Source: Sandaracinaceae bacterium | GTDB taxonomy: Bacteria > Myxococcota_A > Polyangia > Polyangiales > JAFGIB01 | Reading direction: 5' to 3' | Length of the DNA stretch: 64,000 nt | NCBI GenBank assembly: GCA_017881055.1 | Contig: JADGRF010000009.1 | Span: 1 to 64,000 of the forward strand | Shown here: positions 14,633 through 62,591 of the stretch, piece after piece | How positions within the stretch are numbered: the stretch's first letter is position 1 | Layout of the letters: each line of letters begins with the position of its first letter | Position numbers and translations under genes: made by a program | Notes under the pieces: generated by a model | The model's database searches: none | What the model saw: only the letters and a program-made list of their open reading frames with translations | Told to the model about the DNA's origin: nothing

Positions 14633-16000
14633 GTGAGCTCGTTCCGTTCTCTACAATTCCCGGTCCTGCTTCTGCTTCTCTCGCCCGCCGGCCTGGCGCA
14701 TGCCGAGCCGCCCTCGCCTTCCGAGCCAAGCACCGGACCCGCGATCGAGCTGCCGAGCGAGCCCGCTCCCGCTGCCGTGCCAGCCGCTGTGCAGGCGTCA
14801 CCGGTCCCAGCAGACGCAGCGCCCGCAATCCCAGCAGCGCAGCCTGCCGCGCCGCAAACCGTCCCAACAGCTGCGCCCGAGCAACGCGCGTCCAGCACGA
14901 CGATCGGCGGCTACGCCGAGCTGCACTTCAACGTCGAGCGCCTGACGGGGCCCGGTGCCAGCGACTCGACCATCGATCTGCATCGCTTCGTCGTCTTCCT
15001 CGGCCACGAGTTCACGCCGAAGCTGCGGTTCTACTCCGAGCTCGAGGTCGAGCACGCGGTGGCCTCGTCGAGCGACGTCGGCGAAGTGGAAGTCGAGCAA
15101 GCCTACCTCGACTACAAAGTCGCGGGCGAGTGGCTCGGTATCCGCGCCGGCGTGTTCCTGATGCCGATCGGCATCATCAACCAGTGGCATGAGCCGCCGT
15201 CGTTCAACGGCGTCGAGCGGCCGAGCGTCGACACCGTGATCATTCCCAGCACCTGGCGCGAAGGCGGCGTCGGCCTCTTCGGCGCACCGCTGGACGGTCT
15301 TCGCTATCAGCTTTATTTGAGCGGCGGGCTGAATGCCGCGGGCTTCAGCGCTGCCGAAGGCATTCGCGAAGGTCACGGCGAGGTCGCACAAGCGCGCGCC
15401 AACGGCTTGGCCGTGAGCGCACGCCTGGAATACGAACCGATGCTCGGTGTAATCGCCGGGCTGTCTGGGTACTACGGGCACGCAGGCCCGAATGCGGAGC
15501 TGTTCGACGCCTCCGGCGCGCCGGCCAGCCTCGACGTTCCGGTCATGGGCTTCGCAGCCGACGCGCGAGCCAAGCTGCATGGCATCGAGCTACGGACCGA
15601 GTTCGCCTACTTTCACATCGGCGACACGGCTGCGTTGCGCAGCGCATTCAATGCCCAAGGCACTGCGCTCGGTCTCGATCCCGGCTCGGCCATCCTCGGC
15701 GGCTACGTGGAAGCGGCGTACGACGTGCTGCGCGCTTTCGCCCGCGACAGCGACCAAGCGCTGCTCCCGTTCGCGCGACTCGAGCGCTACGACACCATGT
15801 TCCGCATCGCCGGCCGGCCGCGCACGGCAGCCGACGCCACGTACGCCATCACGGAGTTGGCGTTCGGCCTCACGTACCGGCCCATCCCCGCTGTGGCCTT
15901 CAAAGGCGACTTCGTCTGGGCAAACCCGGACGGCCCCGGTCCAGGCGGCCGTTCCGACGCCACCGGGCGGCTCGATTTCGGCGTCGGCACGATGTTCTGA
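14633..16000 (+). CDS. Outer-membrane porin (OprP/OprO-like)
   Basis: Signal peptide, Pro/Ala-rich spacer, then beta-barrel pattern GGYAELHFNVERL...HRFVVFLGHEFTPKLRFYSELEVEHA...FLMPIGIINQWHEPPSFNGVERP; terminal F. Confidence 0.72.
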   Translation: MSSFRSLQFPVLLLLLSPAGLAHAEPPSPSEPSTGPAIELPSEPAPAAVPAAVQASPVPADAAPAIPAAQPAAPQTVPTAAPEQRASSTTIGGYAELHFNVERLTGPGASDSTIDLHRFVVFLGHEFTPKLRFYSELEVEHAVASSSDVGEVEVEQAYLDYKVAGEWLGIRAGVFLMPIGIINQWHEPPSFNGVERPSVDTVIIPSTWREGGVGLFGAPLDGLRYQLYLSGGLNAAGFSAAEGIREGHGEVAQARANGLAVSARLEYEPMLGVIAGLSGYYGHAGPNAELFDASGAPASLDVPVMGFAADARAKLHGIELRTEFAYFHIGDTAALRSAFNAQGTALGLDPGSAILGGYVEAAYDVLRAFARDSDQALLPFARLERYDTMFRIAGRPRTAADATYAITELAFGLTYRPIPAVAFKGDFVWANPDGPGPGGRSDATGRLDFGVGTMF

Positions 16001-16110
16001 AAACTGTCTCATTCCATCGACTTAGCGATAGAATTCGCAGCCTGGCGCGTCGATCTTGGTTGATCTCGGGACGGTCCGGGATTAAACACCTCGTGGGCTT
16101 GATGATAACG

Positions 16111-16710
16111 ATGTTCAAAAGCATTTTCACTTGGTTGGTCTGCGCAACCACAGTGTGCACGGTGCTGACGGCCACACTGACGGCCGCGCCGCAGCACGCG
16201 CTGGCCGAGGACTTCTTCACGCCGCGTCAGCTGCTCGCTGAACAGTTCCACGCCTCGCAGCGCGTGACGTATCTGCGCGTCGAGCCCACGAGCGAACAGC
16301 GCGCACGCGTGGAGAGTCGCATCGGTCGTGCGCTGCCGAAGGCGAGCTACACGTTCTTCATCGCGCTCAGCAACGGCAAGGTCGACGGCTATGCCCTGTT
16401 CGACGAGCAAGTGGGTCAACACGAGCCAATCTCGCTCGCCACGTTCTTCGACGCCGACGGACGCGTCACGCGCGTGGAAGTAGTCGCGTACCGCGAGCCC
16501 TATGGCGACGGCATTCGCGCCGAGCGCTTTCGCAAGCAGTTCGTCGGCCGTTCCGCGCAGAGTCACTTTCGTGCAGGCGAAGACATCGACGCAGTCTCGG
16601 GCGCGACCATCTCCTCGCACTCGATGTGCATCGGCGTGCAGCGTGCAACGGCGCTGTTCGACGAGACGATCGCGAAGCTGACTCCCGCTGCGGTGCTCGC
16701 GACGCGATGA
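16111..16710 (+). CDS. Exported FMN-binding domain protein
   Basis: Signal peptide MFKSIFTWLVCATTVCTVLTATLTAAPQHALA and flavinylation-type motif DIDAVSGATISSHSM. Start could be 16102. Confidence 0.83.
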   Translation: MFKSIFTWLVCATTVCTVLTATLTAAPQHALAEDFFTPRQLLAEQFHASQRVTYLRVEPTSEQRARVESRIGRALPKASYTFFIALSNGKVDGYALFDEQVGQHEPISLATFFDADGRVTRVEVVAYREPYGDGIRAERFRKQFVGRSAQSHFRAGEDIDAVSGATISSHSMCIGVQRATALFDETIAKLTPAAVLATR

Positions 16711-58148: not shown

Positions 58149-58201
58149 GGCGCTGGCACAGTGGGCCCCTGATGCGACCTGCTTTTTGCGGAGGCCTTCC
58201 T

Positions 58202-59188
58202 ATGATTCGACTCGCGCGCCTATTGCGCCCACTGCAGCTGACAGCGGCGGTCCTGCTCGTCTCGGCTTGTGGAAGCACTAAAAACCCCGCCAACGCAGCT
58301 TGCGTGAACGGCATCTGCGGCACCGCCGGCAACGGCGGCGCAGGTGGCAACGGCTCTAGCGGCAACGGCGGCGCGGGTGGCAACGGCTCTAGCGGCAACG
58401 GCGGCGCGGGTGGCAACGGCTCTAGCGGCAACGGCGGCGCGGGTGGCAACGGCTCTAGCGGCAACGGCGGCGCGGGCGGCAACGGCTCTAGCGGCAACGG
58501 CGGCGCGGGCGGCAGCGGCGGACCGAGCTGCGTGGCCGGCGCGAACTGTCAGGAATCCTGGACCTGCACGCCCTGGCAAACCGCGGGCACGCCGAAGCAC
58601 GGGCAGGCCAGCGGCGACAACGCCGGCACGCGCACCTGCACGGATGCCTGCAGCTGCGGCACCACCAAGAGCAAGCCGACGGAGAGCGTCACGCTCCTCC
58701 CGCTCGACTTCGACTTCTATCAATGCTCGGTCGAGCCTGTGCTCGACAAGTTCTGCGCGCAGATGGGCTGTCACGGCACCGAGACTGGTCGCGCCCTGCG
58801 CATCTACGCCCGCGGCAAGTTGCGCCACGCCGGCGAGAACTGGACCTACGACGGCTGCCTGCAGACCAACGTGCACATCACGTCCGACTCGTGCATCGGC
58901 TCGGTCGAGTGCGGTTGCTACCTCCTGCCGCATTCCGACACCGAGTGGCAGCGCAACTACGACGCAGCGCGCGCGTTCGCGCTCGATGCGACCGGCACGA
59001 AGCTCGCCAACATGGATAACTCCGAGCTGCTCAAGCAGCCGGTGAGGGACGGTGGGCTCGCGCATGCGGGCATCCACATCTTCACCAAGGCCGGCGCCGA
59101 CTACGCGACGATCAAGACCTGGCTGACGGGCACAGGCAAGACAGGCCCGGGCACGGGCTGCAACAACACGGCTCAACAGTCGAACTGA
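58202..59188 (+). CDS. Lipoprotein with 11-aa repeats and CX4CH motif
   Basis: Lipobox LVSACGS; (NGGAGGNGSSG) repeats; SVEPVLDKFCAQMGCHGTETGRALRIYARGKLRH. Confidence 0.8.
   Translation: MIRLARLLRPLQLTAAVLLVSACGSTKNPANAACVNGICGTAGNGGAGGNGSSGNGGAGGNGSSGNGGAGGNGSSGNGGAGGNGSSGNGGAGGNGSSGNGGAGGSGGPSCVAGANCQESWTCTPWQTAGTPKHGQASGDNAGTRTCTDACSCGTTKSKPTESVTLLPLDFDFYQCSVEPVLDKFCAQMGCHGTETGRALRIYARGKLRHAGENWTYDGCLQTNVHITSDSCIGSVECGCYLLPHSDTEWQRNYDAARAFALDATGTKLANMDNSELLKQPVRDGGLAHAGIHIFTKAGADYATIKTWLTGTGKTGPGTGCNNTAQQSN
58331..58521 (+). repeat. 33-bp in-frame tandem repeat, 5 full copies plus a partial
   Basis: AACGGCGGCGCRGGYGGCAACGGCTCTAGCGGC, starts 58331, 58364, 58397, 58430, 58463, partial 58496; encodes NGGAGGNGSSG. 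Confidence 0.92.
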
Positions 59189-59190
59189 GG

Positions 59191-59937
59191 ATGACCATGA
59201 AAAACCCCACCCTCACGCGCCTCTCCACCGCCGGTCTGATCGTGCTGGCGATCAGCATGTACGCAGGCGTCTCGCACGCCTTCCCGTCGCACACGTTCTG
59301 GCACGCCGCGGCGAGCGGCGCTTCGGGCTCGGCTGGCACGCGCCCCGGTGCAGACGGCATCTACTACACGGGTGGCACGACCGACTACGGAATGAAGTGC
59401 TCGCACTGCCACATCAACAACAAGCAGCAGCAAGGCTCGGTCTCGATCACGGTCGTGCCGACACCAGGCTGGCAGAGCGTCAGCGGCAGCGACGGATACA
59501 AGCCCGGAATGCAGTACATGGTCACGGTTAACCTGGTCGGCGCCCACCTCGGCGCCGCAATGGACGATCAGAACGGCATGAACCTGACGATCGAAGACGC
59601 CAACGGCGCGGTCGCCGGCGTCTTCACGGCCAGTATCGGCAGCAGCTCCAGCGCTGCCGCGTGCGGCACCGGAACGGCCGCGGATCCGAAGCCGTCGGGC
59701 CAACCAACCCAGGGACAGAGCACTGTCATCTACGGCAACTGCCACGGCGTTCTGGGCCTCGAACACGAAGCCGACGGCAACGCGCGCACCTCGTGGACCT
59801 TCAGCTGGACAGCGCCCGCCGCCGGCACCGGTGACGTAACGATCTTCGTCGGCGCCGTCGACGGAGACCACGACGGCACGAGCAGCCTCGACGACGACGT
59901 AGCCGAAGCCTCGATCGTCCTCAAAGAAGGCGCTTGA
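59191..59937 (+). CDS. Secreted CXXCH protein, choice-of-anchor-V/reeler-like domain
   Basis: Signal peptide; YGMKCSHCHINN; KPGMQYMVTVNL; ARTSWTFSWTAPAAGTGDVTIFVGAVDGDHDGTSSLDDD. Confidence 0.75.
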   Translation: MTMKNPTLTRLSTAGLIVLAISMYAGVSHAFPSHTFWHAAASGASGSAGTRPGADGIYYTGGTTDYGMKCSHCHINNKQQQGSVSITVVPTPGWQSVSGSDGYKPGMQYMVTVNLVGAHLGAAMDDQNGMNLTIEDANGAVAGVFTASIGSSSSAAACGTGTAADPKPSGQPTQGQSTVIYGNCHGVLGLEHEADGNARTSWTFSWTAPAAGTGDVTIFVGAVDGDHDGTSSLDDDVAEASIVLKEGA

Positions 59938-59993: not shown

Positions 59994-60668
59994 TTACTTG
60001 CCTTCGTGCACGAGCACTTCCGCCGTGTAGACATCGTCGTCGAAGGGGTCGGTGCGCGTGCTGTTCGGGCCGCCGGCGGCGCCGTTTCCGTCGACTACGC
60101 CGAGCGAGAACGTGACGTTGCCACGGCCCTTGGCCGGTGCGGTCCACGAGAACGTCCAGTCGGTCTCGCCTGGCGTCTGGCCGGCATCGCCTAGCGCCAC
60201 GATCTCGCCCGCGGAGTTGGTGCGGATGAAGAACTTCTGCGCGGAGGCATTGATGATGCTGCCCGCAGCGGCGCCTTTGGCGTCGAGCGCGCGAAACATG
60301 AAGCTGTTGTAGTTCGAGCGGGGCGAATCGAGCCCCTTGGTTTCCATCACGATGTGCAGCGTGAAGTCGTAGGTCTGCCCGGGCGTGTACTTGAAGTCGT
60401 TGAAGAGCGACGTCGTAAAGCTCACCTTGAGCTTGCCCGGCGCTTTGATGTGACAGGCGGCACACGTCCAGCCGTGATCGCTCTGCGCGCCCGAGTAGAA
60501 CGTGCCGCCACCACCACCGCTGTCGGGGCTGTCGTCGAAGGTTTTCGCTGCGTGGAATGCGCGGGCGACCGGCGCATGCAGGGCGTCTTCGAAGACGAGA
60601 CCACCGAGCGCGACGAGAGCGCCGATCGTGCTGAAACCCGAGACCAGCGCGTGGCTCTTGCGCTTCAT
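59994..60668 (-). CDS. Secreted CXXCH protein, choice-of-anchor-V/reeler-like (paralog of 59191-59937)
   Basis: HGWTCAACHIKAPGK; TPGQTYDFTLHI; ETDWTFSWTAPAKGRGNVTFSLGVVDGNGAAGG...DPFDDDVYTAEVLVHEGK. Confidence 0.75.
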   Translation of the reverse strand: MKRKSHALVSGFSTIGALVALGGLVFEDALHAPVARAFHAAKTFDDSPDSGGGGGTFYSGAQSDHGWTCAACHIKAPGKLKVSFTTSLFNDFKYTPGQTYDFTLHIVMETKGLDSPRSNYNSFMFRALDAKGAAAGSIINASAQKFFIRTNSAGEIVALGDAGQTPGETDWTFSWTAPAKGRGNVTFSLGVVDGNGAAGGPNSTRTDPFDDDVYTAEVLVHEGK

Positions 60669-61240
60669 AGGCCTGCATCTCCCGAAGTGGCGGAGTCGAT
60701 GGTTCCGGCGTCGAGCAGCGCGGCAAAGCGCACCTTGCACTGCGGATCATCCTGCCAGCTCGTGCCCTTCACCCACTTCTGCAGCACGGCGTAGTCTGGA
60801 TCTTTCGCATCCGTGAACACGTTGCCCTTGCCGAAGAGCGTCGCACCGCGATGGAAGTAGCCGCCGATCTTCTGATCGAGCGGCTTCATGACCAGCAAGC
60901 TCTTCTCCGGGTGCCCGAACGCCACCATCGCCCGCGCCGCCAAGTAGTTGCGATGGAGCTCGTCAGGCGTGAGCGGCGAGTTGCGTGTGTCTTCGTCGCC
61001 ACCGTAACGCAGGCGGTTACGCGCGTAGATGCGTAGGTAGCGATCGCCGGAGCCGTGGCACAAGAACATCGAGCAGCTCTTTGTCAGGATCGGCTGCACC
61101 TTGCACTCGAAGTAGATCGGATCGACGCCGGCCGGGACGCCCTTGGCGTCGAGCTTCTGGGCACAGCCAACGAGCGAAACGCAGCCAACGGCTGCGGCTG
61201 CCGCCAGCGTCAAGAGGGTCCGTAGCTCGAGCGAACGCAT
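60665..61240 (-). CDS. Lipoprotein with CX4CH motif (paralog of 58202-59188)
   Basis: VGCVSLVGCAQ lipobox; KVQPILTKSCSMFLCHGSGDRYLRIYARNRLRYGG; ATGA overlaps at both ends. Confidence 0.78.
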   Translation of the reverse strand: MRSLELRTLLTLAAAAAVGCVSLVGCAQKLDAKGVPAGVDPIYFECKVQPILTKSCSMFLCHGSGDRYLRIYARNRLRYGGDEDTRNSPLTPDELHRNYLAARAMVAFGHPEKSLLVMKPLDQKIGGYFHRGATLFGKGNVFTDAKDPDYAVLQKWVKGTSWQDDPQCKVRFAALLDAGTIDSATSGDAGL

Positions 61241-62370
61241 CAGAAGTAGCCTCCCGCGCCGAGCTCGGCGACGTAGCCGAAGCGCTTGGGTAGCGCGGCG
61301 TACTCGGGAAACCAAAAACCGCAGCCGTTGACCTTGAGATCGATGCGCAGGTCGGACATCGGGCCCACGTCACCGAAGCGCAGCGTGGCGTGCGGGCCCG
61401 CGAACACGTCGTACATGGTCGAGAGCTTGCGGTCGGCGGTCATGTAGCGCATCTCGAGCGGATAGATGTCACGGTAGAAGTCGGCCTTGTGCTGCGCGTA
61501 GCCGCGCACGGAGAATGCAAGTTCCCAGGGCGCGAAGCCCACGATGTACTCGGTGCCGGCGGTGAGCGAGGTGACGCCCCAGTCGTCGCGATAGACGCGC
61601 ATGTGCGAGCGCAGCGACGTGTCCGAGAACAGCGCGTGGTTCCAGCGCAGGGTCAGCGCGTGGCGGGCACGCGTGTTCGGCATGCGCTCACCCGGCTGAC
61701 CGGACCTGCCGCCCGCGTACAAGACCTGGTCCGGCTGACTCGGATCGCGAAAGCGCGCGTAGCGATACGGACTGGCTTGGTAGCCGTCGAGGTAGCTCAA
61801 GTTGTACGCGAGGGACCACAGGTCGTTCGGGCCGCCCACGATCACCGCGTTCGCCGTGCCGCTGTACACGTGCAGCCGCTCGTGGAAGTTCGGGTCGTGC
61901 GAGCGACCGACATGGTTGTCGACGAAGCTGCCGCCGAGACCAAGCGTGAGATCGTGCACGAAGAAATCGTGCGACACGCCGAAGTTCACCGTGTTGGACG
62001 ACCAATCGTTCTCGTCCGAGAAGATGTACGAGCCGTTGAGGGTGGTCGAGCCGTCGGCGTAGGACAGGCCGCCCTCGGCTTCTTTACGGACTTCGTGCCA
62101 GCGCTTGGTCGCCGCAGCGACTACGTCGACCGAGGCCGTGGACACCACGTCGATCAAGCCGTGCGCATCGACCCCGACCTTTTCGCTGACCGCAGCCGAG
62201 GCTGCCAACACGCTGGTGTCGATGAACGTCGCGTCGTCGTCCTGATAGACCGAGTTGCGAATGCGCACGGATGTCTGTTGTTGCGCACGCGCTGGTGCGG
62301 CCGCAGCGCTAACCAGGGCCGCGCTGACGAGCGCACACGCGAATGCAATGCGCGTCAGTTGCAACCGCAT
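61240..62370 (-). CDS. DUF3570-like outer-membrane beta-barrel protein
   Basis: Signal peptide; VRIRNSVYQDDDATFIDTSVLAASAAVSEKVGVDAHGLIDVVSTASVDVVAAATKRWHEVRKE..GGLSYADGSTTLNGSYIFSDENDWSSN...GFWFPEYAALPKRFGYVAELGAGGYF. Confidence 0.75.
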   Translation of the reverse strand: MRLQLTRIAFACALVSAALVSAAAAPARAQQQTSVRIRNSVYQDDDATFIDTSVLAASAAVSEKVGVDAHGLIDVVSTASVDVVAAATKRWHEVRKEAEGGLSYADGSTTLNGSYIFSDENDWSSNTVNFGVSHDFFVHDLTLGLGGSFVDNHVGRSHDPNFHERLHVYSGTANAVIVGGPNDLWSLAYNLSYLDGYQASPYRYARFRDPSQPDQVLYAGGRSGQPGERMPNTRARHALTLRWNHALFSDTSLRSHMRVYRDDWGVTSLTAGTEYIVGFAPWELAFSVRGYAQHKADFYRDIYPLEMRYMTADRKLSTMYDVFAGPHATLRFGDVGPMSDLRIDLKVNGCGFWFPEYAALPKRFGYVAELGAGGYF

Positions 62371-62591
62371 CCGCCACCACCCGAGCCGTAGCCGCCCGTC
62401 GAGCCCTCGCGATACAGGTACACGTGCTGCTCGAGCAGTACGGCCTCGGGATCGTCGTCGAAGCGCATCTTCGGCTTGGCGAGCGTCTCGCGCTCCCACG
62501 GCTTGGCGCCGGCGCAGCCTCCGATACCGCACGAACCCAAAAGGCCAATCACGCAGGCACAAGCCAAGGTTCGAGCACGCAGCTTGGACAT
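62355..62591 (-). CDS. Small DUF4266-like lipoprotein, C-terminal GGYGSGGGGCGCN
   Basis: MSKLRARTLACACVIGLLGSCGIGGCAGAKPWERETLAKPKMRFDDDPEAVLLEQHVYLYREGSTGGYGSGGGGCGCN; overlaps the DUF3570-like start by 16 bp. Confidence 0.8.
   Translation of the reverse strand: MSKLRARTLACACVIGLLGSCGIGGCAGAKPWERETLAKPKMRFDDDPEAVLLEQHVYLYREGSTGGYGSGGGGCGCN

Follow-up and report, generated by a model that had tools for sequence, protein, structure and literature searches.

How should the C-terminus of a very small bacterial lipoprotein be read when it ends, directly at the stop codon, in a glycine-rich run holding two cysteines? The question is raised by a DUF4266 gene at 62355..62591 (minus strand) of a 64,000-nucleotide stretch of DNA from a Sandaracinaceae bacterium, here called the window. 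The initial annotation took the tail to be a functional site rather than a linker. A literature search for DUF4266 or DUF3570 found a single paper mentioning either family (Meheust et al., 2021; PMC8238504). It describes the C-terminal CXC of DUF4266 as highly conserved and as possibly undergoing redox cycling, so that the conservation itself is already published and not new; it also reports that ApbE flavinylates DUF3570 at two [ST]GA[ST] motifs, and that DUF4266 accompanies DUF3570 along with ApbE, a thioredoxin-like protein and sometimes DsbD. What goes beyond that work is the near-constant pairing with a predicted 16-strand barrel, the invariance of the tail across motif classes of the barrel, and the divergent cluster found in the window. 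The DUF3570/DUF4266 pair is widespread, occurring in 90 of 284 genomes in one sample of the window's phylum and in 34 of 399 genomes of a Pseudomonadota sample, and is of no known function.

The DUF4266 lipoprotein

The gene was placed correctly by the initial annotation, on the minus strand and with its tail at the stop. Its 78-residue product matches the PF14086 (DUF4266) profile near full length (78.6 bits against a curated cut-off of 27, positions 2–50 of 50) and ends in GCGCN, a C-terminal CXC identical in kind to that of the family. Translated from the minus strand, the C-terminal end is GGGGCGCN, the sequence up to the stop is MSKLRARTLACACVIGLLGSCGIGGCAGAKPWERETLAKPKMRFDDDPEAVLLEQHVYLYREGSTGGYGSGGGGCGCN, and the tail proper is GGYGSGGGGCGCN (residues 66–78; 62358..62396, minus strand). 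Cys26, the predicted lipid-anchored residue, closes a GIGGC lipobox and falls in an invariant column. The mature part of the lipoprotein, counted from the lipobox, is 53 residues, somewhat shorter than the 60 or so first supposed; homologs with a recognizable lipobox have mature lengths of 50–70 residues (median 53). No solved structure was found by sequence for DUF4266 or DUF3570. A predicted model of DUF4266 alone is of low confidence (pLDDT 69, and about 50 in the tail), and its fold is uninformative.

Conservation of the tail

The alignment of homologs proposed at the outset as the check on the tail was run, using for the search an alignment and model from which the tail had been removed, so that the profile does not select for it; bias from profiles containing the tail is thereby avoided. 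With this tail-less model, DUF4266 was detected in 137 of the 379 genomes searched in the window's phylum. Of the 122 distinct homologs extracted, 120 close with CGC and exactly one further residue, 97 of them as GGGCGCN; the final residue is variable (N, D, G, K, or Y). In a second list, mostly from Pseudomonadota, CGC followed by a single last residue is found without exception in the 37 genuine homologs (six of the 37 are also counted among the 122). A further, low-scoring candidate (L226) is a false match.

Both exceptions among the 122 are broken genes. One (L007) comes from the window's own genome and is a remnant; the other (L191) is a chimera. The remnant, on contig C159 (also L051), joins a tail-less DUF4266 head to a DUF3570 fragment and is either a pseudogene or a misassembly. 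In the chimera (L191:8725-9615) the DUF4266 head continues in frame into barrel-like sequence, without a tail; an intact DUF4266 is encoded on a different contig of that genome.

At the DNA level, the pattern GGCGC[ND]-stop gave 64 matches in 38 whole genomes, against 2 for the reversed pattern, so that the chance expectation is close to nil. Of 30 inspected loci with the pattern, 29 are DUF4266 (one of these lies below the reach of the tail-less model), and each of the five matches in the window's genome is a DUF4266 gene. A scan of genome contigs with a seven-row alignment gave 16 loci, and a plasmid search gave no match.

In the window the tail codons also serve another gene: a 16-base overlap (62355..62370, minus strand) places the DUF3570 start codon, ATG, within the CGC codons. 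It could be supposed that tail conservation is a by-product of this overlapping start or of translational coupling, and we regard this as extremely improbable. The overlap is absent from most homologs; ATGCG or GTGCG occurs in the last 20 bases of only 36 of 120, the tail being the same without it; and the tail codons vary synonymously, with all four glycine codons and both cysteine codons in use, therefore selection acts on the protein. The codon variation and the 36/120 count led us to reject the overlapping-gene artefact as the cause.

By this sequence evidence, invariance at a fixed position, synonymous codon variation and specificity of the pattern to DUF4266, the CGC tail is a fixed, family-specific functional element, and there is strong support for the initial judgment that the tail has a function of its own rather than serving as a linker.

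The DUF3570 barrel

The partner gene, DUF3570 (61240..62370, minus strand), encodes a 376-residue outer-membrane protein that matches PF12094 at 89.8 bits (cut-off 25). Its AlphaFold model, built with 95 homologs, is a 16-strand barrel with pLDDT 92. DUF3570 is encoded in the vicinity of 125 of 130 DUF4266 genes. Two of the five loci that lack it nearby are at contig ends, and a third is the chimera. This pairing and the predicted strands bear out the suggestion that the lipoprotein has a dedicated barrel as its neighbor.

In the model the most conserved DUF3570 residues gather on the side of the long loops, also when strand residues only are compared (mean axial position 0.78 for conserved residues against 0.50; Mann-Whitney p = 8e-6). 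The loop of the flavinylation motifs (residues 79–90), between strands 3 and 4, is modeled on the same side as all the long loops. In the usual topology of outer-membrane barrels the long-loop side is the extracellular mouth. If this holds for DUF3570, which the model falls short of proving, the lipid-anchored arm of DUF4266 could get to the mouth only through the lumen or by lying on the surface.

Flavinylation motifs and ApbE

The two [ST]GA[ST] motifs of ApbE-flavinylated DUF3570 are both degenerate in the window copy: aligned site 1 is D74-VVSTA-S80 (62131..62151, minus strand) and site 2 is D82-VVAAA-T88 (62107..62127, minus strand). Glycine is gone from both (STAS, AAAT), and site 2 also lacks its first Ser/Thr; kept in the alignment are the acceptor Ser/Thr and Ala79, which is invariant in 95 of 95 sequences. 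ApbE modifies the Ser or Thr of a D-x-x-[ST]-G-A-[ST] motif, and in another of its substrates a Gly-to-Ala change left about 50% flavinylation (PMC12052999). The window's genome has seven DUF4266 matches, on contigs C24, C159, C194, C204, C218, C326 and C329, each with a DUF3570 match on its own contig, making seven barrel loci for one ApbE, which is on contig C191 beside a citrate-synthase-like gene. In genomes of the window's order, ApbE is present in 52 of 52 with DUF4266 and in 9 of 20 without, and in the phylum sample in 134 of 137 and 184 of 242, respectively, all counts uncorrected for shared ancestry. Other likely ApbE substrates in the window's genome are one FMN_bind protein and two DUF2271 matches, and some other DUF4266 genomes also have such substrates. 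We therefore rejected flavin loss in the window barrel as a settled fact: the Ser/Thr-x-Ala skeleton is kept with its invariant Ala79, ApbE is near-universal in DUF4266 genomes, and glycine substitution only halves flavinylation in the other substrate. The window barrel may be weakly flavinylated, served by ApbE from elsewhere in the genome.

The FMN_bind protein is encoded in the window (16060-16710, plus strand), has a canonical DAVSGAT motif that makes it a likely ApbE substrate, and is adjoined by a porin-like gene (14633-16000). At another locus (L047:10086-10922) a member of DUF2271, an ApbE-flavinylated family, has a DUF4266/DUF3570 pair as well as CX4CHG and CXXCH genes nearby.

Barrels were classed by their canonical motifs in a MAFFT alignment, in which single assignments can be wrong, and the tail was present in 60 of the 61 loci whose barrel has none, in 45 of 45 where it has a single motif and in 19 of 19 where it has both; the sole failure is the remnant on C159. 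The two-motif barrels have a thioredoxin-like gene in 18 of 19 loci, ApbE in 18 of 19, and never a CX4CHG neighbor, whereas thioredoxin-like and ApbE genes are much rarer around the 106 barrels that have at most one canonical motif. The invariance of the tail is just as strict in loci lacking a nearby thioredoxin-like gene as in those that have one.

Gene neighborhood

DsbD and TlpA/ResA-like proteins are found among DUF4266 neighbors at other loci. Among the genes annotated around DUF4266 in the window, which ends 1.4 kb upstream of it, there is no ApbE, thioredoxin-like or DsbD gene, the set that marks the DsbD-type cluster, nor any metal-transport gene among the neighbors. Downstream of the barrel come a lipoprotein-like protein with a CX4CHG motif (CSMFLCHG; 60665..61240, minus strand), a putative heme protein by its sequence, with no Pfam match and with relatives in 37 of the loci, and a CXXCH protein with a choice-of-anchor V domain (59994..60668, minus strand, start codon inferred; NF041895 at 53.8 bits; CAACH motif). 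A second CXXCH/choice-of-anchor V (Reeler-like) protein is encoded convergently (59191..59937, plus strand; NF041895 at 55.9 bits, Reeler at 22.4 bits), and its membership in the system is uncertain.

Next to it, at 58172-59188 on the plus strand, is a lipoprotein-like gene whose product has NGGAGGNGSSG repeats and, after them, a domain containing CHG; this domain clusters with the CX4CHG proteins. More generally, locus architectures follow the motif class of the barrel: an SH3-domain family (L133:5685-6455 and relatives) is near 27 of 45 one-motif barrels, and 13 no-motif barrels occur with a different family, roughly 600 residues long (L048:11376-13187).

Function of the tail

We favor the reading of the tail as a C-terminal redox-active dithiol/disulfide that acts on the DUF3570 barrel from the end of a flexible, lipid-anchored arm, giving it not quite an even chance. 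It is favored by the thioredoxin-like, DsbD and flavin contexts, by the potential of a CGC tripeptide (-167 mV, close to that of PDI CGHC; PMC4316792), a value that is for the model tripeptide only, and by the precedent of ribonucleotide reductase. The acyl-anchor signal, short body, Gly-rich linker and CGC one residue from the C-terminus are seen in sequence or prediction. An arm of about 50 residues, presumably anchored in the outer membrane, would carry the CGC to dock at the long-loop mouth of DUF3570, and would there relay electrons between a periplasmic thiol donor and a redox group at the mouth. In the classic cluster the donor would be the TlpA/ResA-like protein and the redox group FMN; in the window variant the partner may be the weakly flavinylated barrel or the neighboring putative cytochromes. 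Since the tail is invariant without a canonical flavin motif (60/61) or a local thioredoxin, neither partner alone explains it, and this independence argues that the essential partner is the barrel itself, where the tail may have a basic redox job.

Other roles at the same place are conceivable. The cysteine pair, possibly together with the C-terminal carboxylate, might instead bind a metal such as iron or copper at the mouth, for uptake, reduction or sensing, a reading raised at the outset that we consider rather unlikely. A short CXC flanked by glycines is a plausible metal ligand, and the constant distance to the C-terminus would suit a carboxylate ligand; the last residue, however, varies as given above. 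The VIT1 iron transporter is found in 25 DUF3570 clusters (PMC8238504), but it is thiol-disulfide proteins and ApbE that recur in the classic clusters, and the window neighbors, as annotated, offer no metal transport.

A role without redox chemistry, as a docking, plugging or assembly peptide fitting the mouth or lumen of the barrel, perhaps disulfide-bonded to a partner, would agree with the near-constant pairing with DUF3570 (125/130), with a tail never longer than one residue past CGC, and with a conservation unlinked to flavin motifs and thioredoxin. Two strictly invariant cysteines are nonetheless a strong demand for docking alone, and the DUF3570 alignment has no conserved cysteine to partner them, the best recurrent column holding cysteine in 32 of 124 sequences; we consider this role rather unlikely. 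Covalent modification, whether a cofactor attached through cysteine or a RiPP-type change, is improbable. The short Cys/Gly C-terminus invites it, as does the presence of the cofactor-attaching enzyme ApbE in the classic clusters, but the tail lacks the D-x-x-[ST]-G-A-[ST] motif of ApbE (PMC12052999), and no RiPP-type or other modifying enzyme is among the annotated recurrent neighbor families in a survey that was not exhaustive.

Returning to the redox dithiol, a wider scheme may be sketched, which we put forward as speculative and rather unlikely as a whole. DUF3570 with the CGC tail might form a modular conduit for electrons at the outer membrane, in which the contact of tail and barrel is the fixed core and the redox partner can be exchanged: covalent flavin plus thioredoxin in the classic form, versus c-type heme proteins (CX4CHG lipoproteins, CXXCH choice-of-anchor V proteins) in Myxococcota forms like that of the window. 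If an electron-carrying dithiol does act at the barrel mouth, bacteria would have a route from thiol chemistry to the outer membrane that needs no chain of hemes. The copies with degenerate motifs and no ApbE at hand are a natural experiment separating the role of the tail from flavinylation.

Comparison with known systems

The closest known system is the DsbD-type flavinylation cluster (PMC8238504), in which, as in the window, DUF4266 with its C-terminal CXC is directly beside DUF3570, the Pfam families being equal. The window cluster, as annotated, differs in lacking ApbE, thioredoxin and DsbD, the CX4CHG and CXXCH proteins following instead, and in the loss of glycine from both flavinylation sites. 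For the barrel, a PDB sequence search with DUF3570 gave no match, and resemblances are at the fold level only: to PelBC (TMq 0.52 to 9h80_M), and to OprD-type barrels and OmpG (about 0.45–0.49), in each case with about 10% identity. For the tail, the proposed action may be likened to that of ribonucleotide reductase, whose swinging pair of C-terminal cysteines is reduced by thioredoxin and delivers electrons to the active site (PMC5704485). The DUF4266 pair differs in being on a separate lipid-anchored partner, in its CXC spacing and in its location outside the cytosol; the resemblance is a functional one, and no sequence relationship is claimed.
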